In this document: piece by piece, positions 12,158 through 57,760 of the stretch | Position numbering within the stretch: position 1 is the stretch's first letter | Layout of the letters: each line of letters begins with the position of its first letter | From: Paracoccus sp. MA | GTDB lineage: Bacteria; Pseudomonadota; Alphaproteobacteria; Rhodobacterales; Rhodobacteraceae | Direction: 5' to 3' | Length of the DNA stretch: 64,000 nt | Assembly (NCBI RefSeq): GCF_020990385.1 | Contig: NZ_CP087598.1 | Location: forward strand, 1 to 64,000 | Notes under the pieces: generated by a model | Seen by the model: the letters and a program-made list of their open reading frames with translations, nothing else | Database searches by the model: none | What the model was told of the DNA's origin: nothing | Translations under genes and position numbers: made by a program

Positions 12158-13081
12158 TCAGCGGATTGCGGCCAGACAGCCATGCAGCGCGGCCATGTCG
12201 TCCCGGATCACCCCGACCGGAACCGCCTGCGGAATCCGCGCCATCAGCGGGTCGGACAGGAAGGCCGCCTCGAAGATCTCGAAGCGGTCGGTGCAGGAAC
12301 GCGCCACGCTGCCGGCCAGGAACATCCCGTCCATCGGCATGAATCGCAAGGCAAGTTCGCGGCAGAACAGCCCGAACAGCCGGGCATAGAGCGCCAGCGT
12401 TTCCTCGGCCGCGCCATCGCCTTCGGCGGCGGCCGCGACCACGGCTTCCGCCCGGCCCTGGGCGCCGCCCATGCGCAATGCGTGCAGCCGGGCGAGACCG
12501 CGGCCGGCGAAAAGCTCCTCGACCGAATCGATGGCGCGGCCGGGCTCGCCCAGCGCCTCGGCCAGCGGAGCGGCCACCGAAAGCGGCAGGCGGGTATGGC
12601 CCTCTTCGGCCTCCAGGCAGGCGATGCCGCCGTCCGGCAGAACCTTGACCGCGCAGACGTTGAAGCCGGTGCCGGCATTCACCACCAGCCGCTGGCCGTT
12701 CGACAGCGCGCCCTGGGGCGCCGCGCGCAGGAAACCCGCCGCCTCGCCGTCCAGCGCCGGCGTGGCATAACCCAGCGCGATCAGGTCGTTGATCAGCCGG
12801 GCGCGCGGGGCGCCGGACAGCGCGCAAAGCCGCGCCTCGGAAAAGGTCCAGTCGCGGTTGGTCAGCCGCGCCTCGTCGCCCCAGACCGGGCCGGCGACGG
12901 CGACGCAGACCGCCTCGATCTGCGGGCTGCCCTGCTGGGCCAGGAACCTCGTCACCACCTCGTCGAAACTGGCATGGTCGTCGCCGCGAAACCGGGTGAT
13001 GGTCCCGGTCGCAAGCGCGCCGTCCCGCGCCAGCGCCATCCGCGCATTGGTGCCGCCCACATCCGCCAACAGGATCGCCAT
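12158..13081 (-). CDS. glk: Glucokinase
   Basis: 307 residues, close to the usual size for the Glk family (about 320). It phosphorylates glucose with ATP, feeding the Entner-Doudoroff pathway that is typical of these bacteria. The N-terminal phosphate-binding motif LLADVGGTNAR starts at residue 4. RLINDLIALGY carries the catalytic Asp, VNAGTGFN is the second phosphate loop, and MDGMFLAGSVARS lies near the C-terminus. No sugar transporter or regulator is adjacent; it stands between tamA and a secreted protein. A 5-bp hairpin at 12139-12152 follows the stop, but its T run is on the wrong side for glk. Confidence 0.92.
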   Translation of the reverse strand: MAILLADVGGTNARMALARDGALATGTITRFRGDDHASFDEVVTRFLAQQGSPQIEAVCVAVAGPVWGDEARLTNRDWTFSEARLCALSGAPRARLINDLIALGYATPALDGEAAGFLRAAPQGALSNGQRLVVNAGTGFNVCAVKVLPDGGIACLEAEEGHTRLPLSVAAPLAEALGEPGRAIDSVEELFAGRGLARLHALRMGGAQGRAEAVVAAAAEGDGAAEETLALYARLFGLFCRELALRFMPMDGMFLAGSVARSCTDRFEIFEAAFLSDPLMARIPQAVPVGVIRDDMAALHGCLAAIR

Positions 13082-25167: not shown

Positions 25168-25844
25168 GCCCGGCTCTCCGGCACGATCTCGCGCCCGTCG
25201 GTGGCCATGCCGGCATCCTCGATGGCGTCCCAGATCGTGGTGGCGCTGGTAAAGGCATTGCTGGCCGCGTTCACCACGATCAGCCCGCAAAACGCCCAGA
25301 AGGCCGGGCCAAGGCTGATATTCGCCAGCCCCGCCACCTTGACCAGGGCGATGGCGGTGCCGATGACGAAGATCTCGGCCATGGACCAGGGCCGCAGCGC
25401 CTCGGACAGGCGAAAGGCCGGCACGGCATGGGCATAGGGCGCCCGGTTCCGCGACAGGGGCAGCAGGGTATAGACCAGCAGCAGCGCCCGCAGCACCGGC
25501 AGCCCGACGATCATGCCCAGCACCGCCACGGTCAGCGGCATCAGGGCGCCATGCGAAAAGGCCAGCGCCACCCCGAAAAGCGAGGTCTGGTTGCCGAAAC
25601 CCATGCGCGAGATTTCCAGGAAGGGAAAGAACACCGCCCCGACCATCAGCACCAGCGAGGTGAAGGACAGCGCGATGATCCGGGTGAAGGCGCCGGCGCG
25701 CGGACTGGCCAGCAGGGTGTTGCAGCGCACGCAGCGCGCGGTCTCGCCCGGCTCCAGCTCGCGCTCGACATGCAGCGCGTCGCAGCGCGGACAGGCGATC
25801 AGCCCCGCGCCGGTGGTCAGGTCATATTCGCCCTCGGTCTGCAT
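25164..25844 (-). CDS. pqiA: PqiA-family membrane protein, first half
   Basis: 226 residues. CPRCDALH and CVRCNTLL give a four-Cys zinc-ribbon (residues about 18-42), then four membrane segments with the PqiA signatures FFPFLEISRMG and LRPWSMAEIFVIGTAIALVKVAGLA. It is the first gene of the pqiA-pqiA-pqiB-pqiC operon. In E. coli the operon responds to paraquat through SoxRS; I see no such site here. It is divergent from motB over a 288-base gap. Confidence 0.88.
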   Translation of the reverse strand: MQTEGEYDLTTGAGLIACPRCDALHVERELEPGETARCVRCNTLLASPRAGAFTRIIALSFTSLVLMVGAVFFPFLEISRMGFGNQTSLFGVALAFSHGALMPLTVAVLGMIVGLPVLRALLLVYTLLPLSRNRAPYAHAVPAFRLSEALRPWSMAEIFVIGTAIALVKVAGLANISLGPAFWAFCGLIVVNAASNAFTSATTIWDAIEDAGMATDGREIVPESRA

Positions 25845-26132: not shown

Positions 26133-26933
26133 ATGGCCGGGAACGGGGGCGGCGCCCCGATCATCATCAAGCGGGTCCAGGCCGGGGGCGGCGGCGGTCA
26201 TCACGGCGGCGCCTGGAAGGTCGCCTATGCCGATTTCGTGACCGCAATGATGGCATTCTTCCTGCTCATGTGGCTGCTCAACGCCACCACGGAAAAGCAG
26301 CGGCAGGGCCTGGCGGATTATTTCAACCCGACCCTGATCCAATCCACCCGCAGCGGCCATGACGGCCCCTTCGGCGGCGAGGTGCAGGATGCCGAGACGA
26401 ATTCCGGCAAGGGCGCCGGCGCCTCGCGCGATACCCTTGCCGCGCGGGCACGCGAGGGACAGGAATCCGGTTTCGAGGAAGTGGTCCGGCACATCCAGGA
26501 CCAGCTGACCGGCAGCGGCGCGGAATCGATGCAAAAGGTCAACCTGCTGCGCCATGTAGTGACCCGCATGACCGATGAGGGGCTGGTCATCGAACTGACC
26601 GATCTGATGGACGAGCCGCTTTTCGTCGGCGACAGCGCCCAGCCCACCCCGGCCATGAAGGAGCTGGCCGGGATTTTGTCGGGCGTGCTGGGACGGGTCA
26701 AGAACGAGCTCGCGCTGACCGGCCATGTCAGGGCCTATCCGGAGATGCTGATCCAGTCGCCGGTCTGGGCGCTCTCGGATGCCCGGGCCCATGCGCTGCG
26801 CAACCTGCTGGAGGGGACTGGTTTCGACAGCACCCGCATCCAGCGCGTCACCGCCTTTGCCGACCGGCGCAACCGGTCGGTCAACCCCATGGATCCGAAC
26901 AACAACCGGATCGAAGTGATTTTACTGAGATAG
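26133..26933 (+). CDS. motB: Flagellar motor stator protein MotB
   Basis: 266 residues. A Gly/His-rich cytosolic leader is followed by a single membrane helix in AWKVAYADFVTAMMAFFLLMW, with the proton-path Asp at residue 34. A linker and an OmpA/MotB-like peptidoglycan-binding domain (about 160-266) end in DPNNNRIEVILLR. The ATG at 26133 has AAGGA seven bases upstream, preferred over an ATG at 26126. motA is not adjacent and not elsewhere in the window, which is unusual. It leads the flagellar gene set and is 87 bases before flgE. Confidence 0.93.
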   Translation: MAGNGGGAPIIIKRVQAGGGGGHHGGAWKVAYADFVTAMMAFFLLMWLLNATTEKQRQGLADYFNPTLIQSTRSGHDGPFGGEVQDAETNSGKGAGASRDTLAARAREGQESGFEEVVRHIQDQLTGSGAESMQKVNLLRHVVTRMTDEGLVIELTDLMDEPLFVGDSAQPTPAMKELAGILSGVLGRVKNELALTGHVRAYPEMLIQSPVWALSDARAHALRNLLEGTGFDSTRIQRVTAFADRRNRSVNPMDPNNNRIEVILLR

Positions 26934-27020
26934 CCGGCCGGGAACTGCCGCCGTTATCGGCATCTTAACCCCCCGGCCGCAGACTTGACGCAACAGCGAC
27001 TCACATAGGGTGACAACGAT

Positions 27021-28361
27021 ATGTCGATCTCATCTGCCCTCAGCGCCGGGGTGTCCGGGCTGGCCGCGAATTCGACGCGCCTGGCCAACATCTCGGACAA
27101 TATCGCGAATTCCAGCACCTATGGCTACAAGCGGGTGGATACCAGCTTCGAAAGCATGGTGATCAACCAGGCGCGCGGCGGTGGGACATATACGGCCGGC
27201 GGTGTCCGGGCCACCACCAGCCGGGTCGTCGATCAGCGCGGCAACCTCGTCAGCACCTCGCATCCGCTGGACATCGCCATCTCCGGCCGGGGCATGCTTC
27301 CGGTCGTCAGTTCCGCGACGCTGCTTTCCGGTCCGACCACGCCGCGCGACCTGACCATGACGACCACCGGCTCATTCCGCACCGACGACCAGGGTTATCT
27401 GCGCACCAGCTCTGGCCTGGTCCTGATGGGCTGGCCGGCAAATGCCGACGGCACCATCCCCAGCCAGCCGCGCGATTCCGCCAACGGGCTGCAGCCCATC
27501 CTGATCAATCCCAGCCAGACGGCGGCGGATCCGACGACACGGATCAACCTGCGCGTCAACCTGCCCGCCAACGACGCCGTCGGCGGCGCTGTCGGCGACG
27601 CCCGAGAGATGGAGGTCGAATATTTCGGCAATCTCGGCAACTCCGAACGGATGACGATTACCTTCACGCCGGATGTCGCCGGCGCTGCCGGCGTGCGATC
27701 GAACAGCTGGACCATGGAAATCCGCGATTCGGCTATCATCGACGATCCTGCGACAGCCGAGGATGAATCGCTGATCGGCACCTATACGCTGGACTTCAAC
27801 GACAGCCAGGCAGGCGGCGGGACCCTGGCCAACGTCACCGCGGTGAGCGGGGGCGCTTATGACCCGGCGACCGGCCTGCTGACGGTTCCCGGCGCAAACG
27901 GGCCCATGACCATCAATCTCGGTCGCTATGGCGACAGCCAGGGAATCACCCAGCTCAGCGCCGGGTTCTCACCGGCCAACGTCACCAAGAACGGCTCTCC
28001 GGTCGGCAACCTGACTGGACTTCAGATCGACGAGAACGGCTATCTTCAGGCGACTTATGACACCGGCTTCACCCGCACCCTGTATCAGGTGCCGCTGGTG
28101 GATGTCCCCAATCCCAATGGCCTGATCGCCATGGACAACCAGACCTACAAGGTCTCGCCCCAATCCGGTGCGTTCTATCTCTGGAACGCCGGTGATGGTC
28201 CGACCGGTGCGGTTGCCGGCTATTCGCGCGAGGCATCGACCACCGATGTCGCCGCCGAACTGACCGATCTGATCCAGACACAGCGTGCCTATACCTCGAA
28301 CGCCAAGGTTATCCAGACGGTTGATGAGATGCTGCAGGAAACGGCCAATCTCAAACGCTGA
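27021..28361 (+). CDS. flgE: Flagellar hook protein FlgE
   Basis: 446 residues. The N-terminal rod/hook motif (SALSAGVSGLAANSTRLANI, then NSSTYGYKRVD) and the C-terminal NAKVIQTVDEMLQETANLKR are diagnostic of the FlgE/FlgF/FlgG family. The length and the large beta domain in between fit the hook protein. FlgE is secreted by the flagellar export system and polymerises into the hook. AGGGTGA lies seven bases ahead of the ATG. A TTGACG at 26985-26990 has no good -10 partner. The flgK start lies 54 bases downstream. Confidence 0.94.
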   Translation: MSISSALSAGVSGLAANSTRLANISDNIANSSTYGYKRVDTSFESMVINQARGGGTYTAGGVRATTSRVVDQRGNLVSTSHPLDIAISGRGMLPVVSSATLLSGPTTPRDLTMTTTGSFRTDDQGYLRTSSGLVLMGWPANADGTIPSQPRDSANGLQPILINPSQTAADPTTRINLRVNLPANDAVGGAVGDAREMEVEYFGNLGNSERMTITFTPDVAGAAGVRSNSWTMEIRDSAIIDDPATAEDESLIGTYTLDFNDSQAGGGTLANVTAVSGGAYDPATGLLTVPGANGPMTINLGRYGDSQGITQLSAGFSPANVTKNGSPVGNLTGLQIDENGYLQATYDTGFTRTLYQVPLVDVPNPNGLIAMDNQTYKVSPQSGAFYLWNAGDGPTGAVAGYSREASTTDVAAELTDLIQTQRAYTSNAKVIQTVDEMLQETANLKR

Positions 28362-28415
28362 CATTGACCGGGGCAGCGCCAGGCCGCCCCGCATGCAGAA
28401 ATCCAGGGCATCTCC

Positions 28416-29873
28416 ATGAGCATTTCATCCGCCATCTCCAATGCCGTTTCCGGCCTGACCGCAACCTCGCGCGGCACCGAGATCGTATCGTCGAACATTG
28501 CGAACGCCCTGACACCTGGCTACGCCCGGCGCGAACTCGACCTGTCGCCCCGCCTGCTCGAGCGCGGCGGCGGGGTCAGCATTGATGGCGTCAGCCGGAT
28601 GATCACGACCGGACTGCTGGCTGACCACCGATTGGCCGCGGCCAATGTCGGTGCCTCGCAAGCGACGGCTGCCTTTCACGCAACGATGGAAAAAGTCTTT
28701 GGTATTGGCACCGAAGCATCCGCGCTGGGGCAGGTCCTGACCGATTTCGAAAGCGCCCTGACAAGCGCAGCATCCCGCCCGGACAGCGAAATCCGATTGT
28801 CCACCGTACTCGAGACCGCTTCGGCTCTGGCGCAGAAGATCAGCGGCATCTCCACCGCGATCCAAGCCGAGCGCAGCAAGGCCGAACAGACAATCCAGAA
28901 GGATGTCACGCGCCTGAACGCCGCGCTGGAGCAAGTGGCAAAGCTGAACACCCAGATCGTCACCACATCGGCACAAGGCAAAGACGCCTCCTCCCTGATC
29001 GACGCGCGTCAGGCAGTGATAGACGGCATCTCTGATATCATGCCGATCAAGGAGGTACCGCGAGAAAACGGCCGCATCGCTCTTTTCACTTCGGGCGGCG
29101 CAATTCTTCTGGATGGTACTGAGCCGGCCAGAATCGAGTTCGGCGCTGTCGCCGGCATTACCGCCGACATGTCCGTGGCCAGCGGCGCGCTTTCCGTGCT
29201 GACCTTCAACGGCAAGCCCCTGACCAATACGCAGCAAGCCATGCTGGACGGGGGAACCCTGAGCGCAAGCTTCGCCATTCGCGATCAGCTTGCCCCTGCC
29301 TACCAGCAGCAAATCGACGCTTTTGCTTACGACCTCTATGCGCGGTTCTCCGATCCTGTGATCGATCCATCGCTGAATGCCGGCGGGCCAGGGTTGTTCA
29401 CCGACGCCCAAGGCGCCTTCGATCCCGCAGACGAAACCGGTCTGGCCGGACGAATTGCGGTGAACGCATTGGTCGATCCCGACGCCGGGGGACAATTGTG
29501 GCGCATCCGCGCCGGCATCAATGCAGCTGACGCGGGAGATGCGGGCGAAAGCGCATTGCTGGCGCGCTTGGGCTCTGCGATCTCGGCTTCGCGTATTCCG
29601 GTCTCGGCGAATCTTTCTGACGCACCGGGAAGCTTGCAGACGCTTGCCGCGGATCTCTCCTCCAAGGCTGCTACCAATCGCCTTCGCTCCCAGGCGATCG
29701 CGCTGCAAGACAGTTCCCAGCAGGTGGGTCTCAAGACGGCCCTGCTGGCCGAGGGAGTCGACACCGACAAGGAAATGGAAAGCCTGCTGGCGCTGGAACG
29801 TGCCTATGCCGCAAACGCAAAGGTCTTTCAGACCGCAAATGACATGCTTGACGCTATCCTGAGGCTGACATGA
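28416..29873 (+). CDS. flgK: Flagellar hook-associated protein 1 FlgK
   Basis: 485 residues. It begins SISSAISNAVSGLTATSRGTEI with NALTPGYARREL, and ends DKEMESLLALERAYAANAKVFQTANDMLDAI, the pair of helices that HAP1 shares with other axial proteins. FlgK sits between hook and filament. The gene shows more A and T at third codon positions than the envelope genes around it. The stop overlaps the flgL start by ATGA (29870-29873). Confidence 0.92.
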   Translation: MSISSAISNAVSGLTATSRGTEIVSSNIANALTPGYARRELDLSPRLLERGGGVSIDGVSRMITTGLLADHRLAAANVGASQATAAFHATMEKVFGIGTEASALGQVLTDFESALTSAASRPDSEIRLSTVLETASALAQKISGISTAIQAERSKAEQTIQKDVTRLNAALEQVAKLNTQIVTTSAQGKDASSLIDARQAVIDGISDIMPIKEVPRENGRIALFTSGGAILLDGTEPARIEFGAVAGITADMSVASGALSVLTFNGKPLTNTQQAMLDGGTLSASFAIRDQLAPAYQQQIDAFAYDLYARFSDPVIDPSLNAGGPGLFTDAQGAFDPADETGLAGRIAVNALVDPDAGGQLWRIRAGINAADAGDAGESALLARLGSAISASRIPVSANLSDAPGSLQTLAADLSSKAATNRLRSQAIALQDSSQQVGLKTALLAEGVDTDKEMESLLALERAYAANAKVFQTANDMLDAILRLT

Positions 29874-30887
29874 GTTCTTTCAATTCCATCGGAGACCTTT
29901 CCCGTTCCTACCAGCTTCGGCTTGGCCAGTATGGGCTGAAAACCAGACTGGACCGCCTGACCCAGGAAGTAATGACAGGCATCAAATCAGACATTCCCAA
30001 GGCGCTCGGCGGAGATGTCTCGGGAATCGCGCATATAGACTCGCGACTGAAGATGTTGGCCACGTTCCAGCAGAACGCATCGGAAGCGCATGGCCGTTTC
30101 GCAGGGATGCAGGCGGCTGTCGAGCAGATCCAGACCTTGGTCGAGGACCTCGGCCCCAAATTGCTTAGTGAGCCGAATAACCTGAGCGAAGGCGACCTGC
30201 GCGCACGAACTGCTGACATTACACGAAGTTTCAGGCTGATGTTCAATACATTGAACACCAATATCGGCGGCCGTTTCCTTTTCGCGGGCAGCAGGGCCGA
30301 CACTGCGCCTCTGGGCAGCTTTGACGCGATGCTCGCCGAGTTGGGGAATGTGACAGCCGGCGCCGCAACCGCTGCAGATATCGCGAGCAGTATTGACGCG
30401 TGGTTCGATGCTCCGGCGGGCGCAGGTGGCTTTGCCGACACGATCTACATGGGCGCGCATACCGGCAGCACGCAGTTCTCGGTTTCGCCCGATCATCAGA
30501 CCGGCAGCCCTCTCACTGCGAATGCCGCGGAATTGCGCGATACGCTCAAGGGAATGGCAATCATGGCTCATGCTTCCGCAGCCGGCGCGGCAATCGACGA
30601 GGCAACCTTGCGGGAGTTGTTTTCCGAGGCGGGCGCGCGGCTTGTCAAGGCCACCGCCGGACTGACACATGCCCAGGTCGATCTGGGACAGCGGCAGGCC
30701 GTGGTCACCCAGGCCCAGACGCGAAATGCCGCCGAGGTGGCAACACTTTCCATCGCCCGCCTGAACCTGATCGGGGCTGACCCCTATGAAGCCGCGACCG
30801 CCCTGCAGGAAACCGAGACCGGCATTCAAAGTCTATGCCCTCACGGCTCGGCTTTCCCGTCTCACCCTGACGGATTATCTGTCATGA
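29870..30887 (+). CDS. flgL: Flagellar hook-associated protein 3 FlgL, frameshifted near its 3' end
   Basis: The first 320 residues match FlgL: flagellin-like helix RSYQLRLGQYGLKTRLDRLTQEV, middle domain with NTNIGGRFLFAGSRADTAPL, and a late QTRNAAEVATLSIARLNLIGADPYEAATALQETE. Near 30827-30836 the frame changes. From 30834, in the +1 frame, the bases read YALTARLSRLTLTDYLS then TGA (30885-30887), the expected flagellin-type C-terminus. Without the shift, translation continues in frame into flgI. The repaired protein would be about 338 residues, the normal size. The true stop overlaps the flgI ATG. It could be a mutation, a sequencing error or recoding. Confidence 0.82.
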
Positions 30888-31984
30888 GGTTCCTTTGCCT
30901 TCTTCTGCTCCTGATCGGGCTGGCAGCCCCCAGCACGGCCGCGCCGGTCCGCATCAAGGATCTGGCCAATATTGACGGCGTCCGAGGCAACGATCTGGTC
31001 GGCTATGGCCTTGTCGTCGGGCTCAACGGTTCCGGCGACAGCCTGCGGAATGCGCCATTCACCGAAGCGATCATGGCAGGGCTGCTGGAAAGGCTTGGCG
31101 TGAACGTAACTGACGAGGCTTTTCGCCCCAAGAACGTCGCGGCAGTGATCGTCACCGCAACTTTGCCGCCCTTTGCCCGGGCGGGTTCCCAGATCAACGT
31201 GAATGTGGCCGCTATCGGGGACGCAAAAAGCCTGCTCGGCGGCACATTGGTGATGACACCGCTGAATGCCGCCGACGGAGAGGTCTATGCCGTTGCCCAA
31301 GGCGCGGTTCTGGCTGGGGGCGCAGAGGCCTCGGGCGCTGCGGCTTCCGTGGTCCAGGGCGTTCCCACCACGGGCACCATTCCCTCGGGTGCCAGGGTCG
31401 AACGGGAGGTCGCCTTCGACTTTTCCCAGATGACCAACTTGCGGCTGGCGCTCAGGAGCCCGGATTTTACCACGGCCGCCCGCGTCGAGGCAGCAATCAA
31501 TCGCACGCTCGGCCGCGGCCTGGCCGAGCTTATCGATTCAGGCACCATTGCCATCAACACCAATGCGCTTGGCCGGGTGAACCCGGCGCGACTGATGGGA
31601 CAGATCGAAAACATCACCGTCGAGCCGGAGGCCGTGGCGCGCGTCGTGATCGATCATAAATCCGGGACCATCGTCATGGGCGAGGACGTCCGCGTCTCTC
31701 GCGTGGCCGTCTCACAAGGCAATCTGACCCTGCGGGTCCGTGAAACGCCGGTGGTCTCGCAGCCCAACCCGTTCTCCCCCGGCGAAACCGTGGTGGTGCC
31801 CCGGACCCAGGCCGAGATCACGCAGGAACCGGGCATCGGCTTTGCCGAGGTGGCCGGCGAATCCTCGCTGTCGGATGTGGTGGCGGGCCTGAATGCCCTG
31901 GGTATCCGGCCCCGGGACATGATCGACATCCTCAAGGCCGTCCATGCCGCCGGCGCGCTGCATGCCGAGTTCATCGTGAACTGA
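30884..31984 (+). CDS. flgI: Flagellar P-ring protein FlgI
   Basis: 366 residues from the ATG at 30884, the normal length of FlgI. The signal peptide (MRFLCLLLLLIGLAAPSTAA) sends it to the periplasm, where it forms the P ring around the rod. Conserved parts are VRIKDLANIDGVRGNDLVGYGLVVGLNGSGD at the mature N-terminus, NPARLMGQIENITV, and the end GIRPRDMIDILKAVHAAGALHAEF. The ATG overlaps the TGA of the restored flgL frame. A 704-residue reading that joins flgL and flgI exists only because of the upstream frameshift, and the internal signal peptide argues against a real fusion. Confidence 0.92.
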   Translation: MRFLCLLLLLIGLAAPSTAAPVRIKDLANIDGVRGNDLVGYGLVVGLNGSGDSLRNAPFTEAIMAGLLERLGVNVTDEAFRPKNVAAVIVTATLPPFARAGSQINVNVAAIGDAKSLLGGTLVMTPLNAADGEVYAVAQGAVLAGGAEASGAAASVVQGVPTTGTIPSGARVEREVAFDFSQMTNLRLALRSPDFTTAARVEAAINRTLGRGLAELIDSGTIAINTNALGRVNPARLMGQIENITVEPEAVARVVIDHKSGTIVMGEDVRVSRVAVSQGNLTLRVRETPVVSQPNPFSPGETVVVPRTQAEITQEPGIGFAEVAGESSLSDVVAGLNALGIRPRDMIDILKAVHAAGALHAEFIVN

Positions 31985-54200: not shown

Positions 54201-54323
54201 CAGAACTCGATCGGCATCGGGGTGATGGGCGGCATGATCGCCGCGACCTTCCTCGGCATCTTCATGGTCCCGGCATTCTACGTTACCGTGCGCCGGCTGA
54301 CCGACAGGAGAGCCCGGACATGA
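51225..54323 (+). CDS. RND multidrug efflux transporter (AcrB/MexB, HAE1 family)
   Basis: 1032 residues, the usual size, with 12 membrane segments. It starts [20 protein letters not shown] and has the proton-relay pair in [18 protein letters not shown] and the matching Lys in [17 protein letters not shown]. Porter and funnel domains lie between helices 1-2 and 7-8. It exports hydrophobic drugs from the periplasm, powered by proton influx. It is the middle gene of adaptor-pump-selD and ends in an ATGA overlap with selD (54320-54323). A TolC protein is encoded 3.5 kb downstream but not in this operon. Confidence 0.95.
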
Positions 54324-55363
54324 ACGACCAACCCCGACTGACCTCGCTGGCGCATGGCGGCGGCTGCGGCTGCAAGCTGGCGCCCTCGGTTCTGCGCGAA
54401 CTCTTGGCCGATCAGCCCATGGCGCAGGCGTTCCCGCAATTGCTGGTCGGGACCGAGACCTCGGACGACGCGGCGGTGTATCAGGTGGACGACAACACCT
54501 GCGTCATCGCCACCACCGATTTCTTCATGCCGATGGTGGACGATCCGCGCGCCTTCGGCCGCATCGCCGCGACGAATGCGATTTCCGACATCTACGCCAT
54601 GGGCGGGCGGCCGATCATGGCGCTGGCGATCCTGGGCATGCCCATCGACAAGCTGGCGCCGGACCAGATCCGCGAGATCCTGGAGGGCGGACGCGAGATC
54701 TGCCATCAGGCCGGCATCCCGGTCGCCGGCGGCCATTCCATCGACGCGCCCGAGCCGATCTATGGCCTGGCGGTGATCGGCCTCTGCCACCCGTCCGAGC
54801 TGCGCCGCAATGCCGATGCGCGGCCGGGCGACGCGCTGATCCTGACCAAGGGGCTGGGCGTCGGCATCTATTCCGCCGCCATCAAGAAGGGCGCCCTGGA
54901 CCAGGCCGGCATCGACGAGATGGTCGCCTCGGCCACCACGCTGAACAGGGTCGGCGCTGATCTGGCGAAACGGGCCGATGTGCATGCCATCACCGACGTG
55001 ACCGGCTTCGGCATCCTGGGCCACGGGCTGGAGATCGCCCGCGGCGCCGGGCTGCGCCTGCGGCTGGAGCAGGCGGCGCTGCCGCTTCTGTCGCGCGCGG
55101 CGGCGCTGGCCGAGGCGGGATTCGTCACCGGCGCCTCGCTGCGGAACTGGACCGCCTATGGCGCCGAGGTGGCGCTGCCCGAGGGGCTGCCCGATTGGCG
55201 TCGCCACCTGCTGACCGATCCGCAGACCTCGGGCGGGCTGCTGGTCGCCGTGGCCCCCGAGGCGGCCGAGGAGGTTCTGGCGCAGATTCGCGCCGCCGGT
55301 CATCCGCTGGCCGCCGTGGTCGGGCATTGCGCGGCGGGCGAGCCGGGAATCGCCGTCGCCTGA
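54320..55363 (+). CDS. selD: Selenide, water dikinase SelD
   Basis: 347 residues, full length. It makes monoselenophosphate from selenide and ATP, the selenium donor for selenocysteine and selenouridine. The active-site motif [12 protein letters not shown] holds Cys16 and Lys19, equal to Cys17 and Lys20 in E. coli. [33 protein letters not shown] and [19 protein letters not shown] are well conserved. The catalytic position is Cys and not Sec, so no recoding is needed. The ATG overlaps the RND pump stop. No selA, selB or mnmH is in the window. Confidence 0.95.

Positions 55364-56297: not shown

Positions 56298-57760
<1,463 letters not shown>

Follow-up and report, generated by a model that had tools for sequence, protein, structure and literature searches.

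Why should flgL, which specifies the hook-filament junction protein, run without a stop into flgI in Paracoccus sp. MA, so that the two genes are read as a single frame of 704 codons? The initial annotation of this DNA offered three causes: a genuine mutation in a strain whose flagellum is unused, a sequencing error, or programmed recoding. The window, by which we mean the whole 64-kb stretch analyzed, covers positions 1 to 64,000 of contig C2 (2.39 Mb) in a 4.47-Mb genome of three contigs whose completeness is given as 99.99%, and its nearest relatives are Paracoccus. A row of flagellar genes, motB, flgE, flgK, flgL, and flgI, occupies positions 26133-31984 and has the following features.

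26133..26933, + strand: motB, intact
27021..28361, + strand: flgE, intact
28416..29873, + strand: flgK, intact, overlapping the start of flgL (ATGA)
29870..31984, + strand: fused 704-codon frame, made up of flgL residues 1-322, 16 out-of-frame residues, and all of flgI from its Met (residue 339); domain matches to Pfam FlgI at 361-703, NCBIfam FlgI at 362-703, and an NCBIfam FlgL-type model at 6-320 (below cut-off)
29870..30835, + strand: in-frame part of flgL, 56-69% identical to eight Paracoccus FlgL proteins and 99% identical to the FlgL P0001
30829..30839, + strand: frame break, with a net two bases fewer than in the closest relatives
30834..30887, + strand: orphan flgL tail, read in the +1 frame as YALTARLSRLTLTDYLS followed by TGA at 30885, with 16 of 17 residues as in P0001
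30884..31984, + strand: flgI, 366 aa, beginning at an ATG of its own and 89-93% identical to FlgI proteins from five Paracoccus; the start is signal-peptide-like, the signal peptide being judged by eye

The flgL Frame Is Lost Near Its 3′ End

In frame 0 the junction reads ...ETETGIQSL, then CPHGSAFPSHPDGLSV, then the FlgI start MRFLC..., and the last 17-18 positions of FlgL are absent from it. The +1 frame at the end of flgL encodes YALTARLSRLTLTDYLS and arrives at a TGA (30885-30887) that overlaps the flgI ATG (30884-30886). The in-frame fusion, the normal flgL C-terminus lying in the +1 frame with its TGA at 30885, and the ATGA overlap of a normal flgL end with flgI had all been claimed from the letters alone; the first is confirmed by the 704-codon open reading frame (ORF) at 29870-31984, and the other two by reading the +1 frame. 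Codon-by-codon comparison with 14 relatives places the loss of the flgL frame at approximately 30829-30839, where, by eye, a net two bases are missing relative to the closest relatives. Of the "+1 or -2" change originally proposed near CAAAGTC (30827-30833), it is the net -2 alternative that stands, on that inspection, and the place is refined: the break falls at and just downstream of CAAAGTC. No homopolymer at the site exceeds three bases. The FlgL part of the window matches the NCBIfam model PRK06008 as far as profile position 330 of 348, and the matches of P0001 and of P. denitrificans FlgL extend to position 348, all of these matches being under the model's curated cut-off.

The alignment with relatives' flgL that the initial annotation had called for finds the relatives keeping one frame and the window alone shifted. 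All 14 relatives compared codon by codon hold a single frame through the place of the break, and the offset between the flgL and flgI frames is 1 in every one of 80 relatives' loci (the best 80 of 493, each confirmed) and 0 in the window; this count draws on one set of loci, a second set, in which some loci are reverse-oriented, having been left out. P0001 is an intact FlgL of 339 aa that differs from the window copy at 4 of 320 residues (99% identity); the two tails, that of the window being read in the +1 frame, have 16 of 17 residues in common. Because there are so few differences from P0001, and because the tail is nearly unchanged, the break looks recent. This is the pattern expected of a frameshift pseudogene: homologues keep one frame where the window copy shifts, and an intact, nearly identical copy exists. 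Among ten FlgL proteins, every pair apart from that of the window and P0001 is 54-85% identical, and the six FlgI proteins compared are 88-96% identical to one another; faster evolution of flgL in the window lineage only is not seen in this comparison. The 704-aa fused protein itself is absent from the best 120 of the 5632 matches past threshold.

That the break gives a 704-codon fusion and not a truncation is a consequence of how the two genes are arranged, since flgI starts within an ATGA overlap, in the other frame, and that frame is free of stops through the last stretch of flgL. Over the last 17 flgL codons, the flgI frame is stop-free in 64 of 80 loci (again the best 80 of 493); for the Paracoccus loci (L032-L052 and L095), the count is 13 of 22. 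With the flgI frame mostly open there, fusion is the usual outcome of such a break and is to be expected by chance, and the long ORF requires no special explanation.

No Flagellin Is Detected in Paracoccus sp. MA

The genome of Paracoccus sp. MA contains no match to PF00669 at E 0.001, and the same family was matched in 4 of 14 control genomes. The 280-aa FliC of a relative (G048) is also unmatched in it, in a search that included no known-positive genome and that alone shows nothing. PF00669 misses the strain's own FlgL too, yet it weakly matches the FlgL of many relatives. The lack of a detectable flagellin in both searches is what would be expected of a strain that builds no flagellum.

Flagellin was sought in 41 of the 60 same-genus genomes encountered. 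Within a sample of 36, a clear flagellin is present in 33; two more (G031 and G035) have a PF00669 match at the FlgL place only, one (G017) has none, and the completeness of these three is 79%, 88%, and 71%. Flagellin was found in all 29 of the sampled genomes that are at least 90% complete (weakest E 8.9e-19) and in six of six closer relatives, G011 being common to both sets; combined, the count is 34 of 34 distinct same-genus genomes at least 90% complete. P. denitrificans, P. versutus, and Paracoccus sp. MKU1 all have flagellin, the match in MKU1 lying at the same place as that in G058. P. thiocyanatus (L034 / G102) has a match at the FlgL place only, with flgL and flgI in their normal frames, and no flagellin was found on the one plasmid record of P. 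pantotrophus DSM 11072 that was searched. FlbT has no match in the genome of Paracoccus sp. MA; since FlbT is also missing from G057 and G058, both of which bear flagellin, its absence here says little. Several relatives have fliC and flgL on separate contigs, or have fliC on a plasmid-classed record. If a fourth replicon carrying fliC existed and were missing from the assembly, the main support for the explanation that we favor below would be gone.

Other Flagellar Genes

Two further regions of C2 hold flagellar genes.

C2:2,354.8-2,364.5 kb: flhB, fliR, flhA, motA, a gene with a match resembling the FliG middle domain, fliL, fliF, a gene with no Pfam match, fliN, and fliP
C2:1,754.8-1,760.3 kb: fliI, flgB, flgC, fliE, fliQ, flgF, flgG, and flgH; between flgG and flgH, a gene that matches relatives and was named by no family search

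Gene order is part of the basis for the names fliI, flgB, flgC, flgF, and flgG. Intact genes in the first region are flhB, fliR, flhA, motA, fliL, fliF, fliN, and fliP; in the second, fliI, flgB, flgC, fliE, fliQ, flgF, flgG, and flgH; and in the window, flgE, flgK, motB, and flgI. No further broken flagellar gene was seen among those checked, fliM, fliG, fliK, flgD, and flgJ being outside the survey. Best-per-place gene lists for the window and the two C2 regions, inspected by eye, contain no other gene body broken relative to at least two relatives. They do contain frame crossings on which two relatives agree, for instance adjoining the glucokinase gene at 12161-13081 and the gene at 57107-57757, and we judge these to be relatives' ORFs that continue upstream of the gene start. 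Comparison with one relative suggested a stop in a gene following flgH; the cause was an ORF that extends upstream of a glycosyltransferase-like gene (a name given by eye, with no family search), which is itself intact. A gene-wide scan for frame breaks using all of the relatives' ORFs was swamped by antisense ORFs and upstream extensions, and its counts (32, 24, 17, and 9 crossings in G056, G011, G057, and G048, among 381, 354, 306, and 242 queries) were not used.

In one of these relatives, G056, there are apparent frame breaks in a PqiA-like gene (window position 25640) and in a gene matching 54320-55357 (window position 54667), as well as one TAG within the FlhA match where other relatives read through. 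The G056 assembly, or its genes, may carry lesions of their own.

Discussion

We think that flgL in Paracoccus sp. MA probably became a pseudogene recently, through an ordinary frameshift, and that the strain is probably unable to build a filament. A net two-base deletion near the 3′ end of the gene, most simply a product of replication slippage, would have replaced the last 17 residues of FlgL and, in the same step, placed flgL in frame with flgI. Flagellin-like axial proteins need their C-terminal helical region, and the last 17 residues of FlgL belong to it. Without a detectable flagellin, a hook-filament junction protein has nothing to join; selection on FlgL is therefore expected to be relaxed, and the loss of a protein that has no partner would cost the cell nothing. 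We infer that FlgL no longer functions, that the strain makes no filament and is non-motile, that selection is relaxed, and the order in which the events occurred. Since the other flagellar genes checked are intact, any decay can at most be just beginning, and P. thiocyanatus, in which flgL is intact despite the apparent absence of flagellin, suggests that losing flagellin does not promptly break flgL. The proposal that this is a real mutation in a strain not using its flagellum thus receives independent support in one respect, no detectable flagellin against 34 of 34 relatives, and receives none in another, further flagellar genes being unbroken. Among the three causes first put forward, we rank the unused flagellum as the best supported and sequencing error second, and we regard recoding as very unlikely.

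A sequencing or assembly error, in which the strain's own flgL would be intact and the break would exist in the record only, seems unlikely, but it survives better than any other alternative. It would sit comfortably with the normally constrained look of the orphan tail and of the rest of flgL (4 differences over 320 residues from the intact copy), with the integrity of the other flagellar genes checked, and with the fact that the frame break is known from one assembly. The typical long-read error, however, is a one-base slip in a homopolymer, and here the site contains no homopolymer run and the difference is of two bases. No other gene body in the window or the two C2 regions was seen by eye to be broken relative to at least two relatives, and, with no flagellin detected, a real lesion is readily believable.

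There is very little probability, in our estimation, that the 704-aa product is functional, whether because FlgI is freed by signal peptidase from what has become an internal signal sequence or because the fusion has a new role. The fused frame is open, FlgI is intact with a signal-like start, and another FlgL-FlgI reading frame does exist, P0095, of 699 aa. Like the window copy, P0095, which is known from one contig, loses the flgL frame before the 3′ end and runs on into flgI; unlike it, the break lies further upstream, and identity between the two is 50%. P0095 is, however, a single-member entry, the only one of the best 120 of 5632 matches to cover both halves, and its FlgL half ends in unrelated residues: the profile match stops at 285 of 348, and for this reason P0095 appears to be an independent frameshift. 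Moreover, FlgL and FlgI are exported by different routes, which argues against a working fusion. We give no more credence to the idea that the hook-basal body and export apparatus are kept for some other use, such as secretion or attachment, with the flgL frameshift being favored since it would end assembly at the hook and leave an export machine that has a FlgL-FlgI fusion and no filament.

Least probable of all is programmed ribosomal frameshifting at about 30830 to yield a normal FlgL together with a FlgL-FlgI product: the orphan tail is indeed well conserved in the +1 frame, but the shift occurs neither in any of 80 relatives' loci (the best 80 of 493) nor in the 99%-identical P0001, the break has by eye neither a slippery heptamer, as the initial annotation had also held for the CAAAGTC region, nor a stop codon of the kind found in prfB, and the 100 bases downstream (30834-30933) show no stimulating structure, their fold being unremarkable (z -0.53, with 58 of 200 shuffles equaling or exceeding it in stability, folded without pseudoknots). 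The prfB gene is read through a +1 programmed frameshift with a stop codon at the site; reaching the normal flgL tail would likewise need a shift in the +1 direction, but the window lacks the stop codon, the slippery codon, and the conservation. We found no paper on programmed frameshifting in flgL. Recoding and a functional fusion are, in our judgment, both very unlikely.

If flgL is a frameshift pseudogene, as we favor, the event looks ordinary in kind, the decay of an unused flagellum with no new mechanism. The Xanthomonas fuscans 4834-R study describes strains that are non-motile and carry deletions within the flagellar cluster, and it attributes most putative pseudogenizations, 81 of 137, to frameshifts from short indels (PMC3826837); this kind of event is well known. 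Both cases involve flagellar gene loss at the level of the strain, but in Xanthomonas, a plant pathogen, a large deletion of the cluster is reported (PMC3826837), whereas in this Paracoccus there is a single small deletion in flgL, no detectable flagellin, an incidental fusion to flgI, and no damage to the other genes checked. Work on P. aminophilus reports no rpoF equivalent in that species and includes motility among chromid gene functions, with no bearing on Paracoccus sp. MA (PMC3925955). Our literature searches returned no paper on flagellar genes, fliC, and non-motile Paracoccus, and none on flagellin in nonmotile Paracoccus; among the papers listed for Paracoccus, none has a title concerning motility in the genus.

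On this reading, the locus offers a modest but clear example of flagellar decay at an early stage, in which flagellin is undetected, the gene for the hook-filament junction is broken, and the other flagellar genes checked are intact. For annotators it carries a warning, as the 704-aa "FlgL-FlgI" protein is the product of a frame break. Should this order of loss, flagellin first and flgL afterward, prove general among strains, it would reveal the way in which Paracoccus becomes permanently non-motile.

The fliC Region of P. ferrooxidans and Insertion Sequences

A 19.9-kb stretch of P. ferrooxidans around fliC was compared with the genome of Paracoccus sp. MA, and 40 of 877 first-look candidates were scored; the statements in this paragraph apply to those 40. 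The first 2 kb of the stretch, an efflux/TetR flank, matches C1:755860-757932 at 90%. The other strong matches are to insertion-sequence repeats; the rest are one of 1.25 kb at 66% and short weak ones, and the flagellin gene is left uncovered among the matches listed. An empty fliC site was not located in Paracoccus sp. MA: one flank was found, and the neighboring flagellin side was not.

In P. ferrooxidans itself (CP038202.1; L199:25523-30028), transposase genes of the IS5 and IS3 families flank the flagellin gene, and a short gene annotated as FliK is close by; it is possible that this is a second decaying flagellin locus in Paracoccus. The genome of Paracoccus sp. MA (G000) has numerous insertion-sequence copies on contigs C1, C2, and C3: an IS5-family element of P. 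ferrooxidans is matched near-identically at least five times, over about 1,050 bases each, and an ISPme2-like element of P. ferrooxidans is matched at least 15 times at 76% identity.
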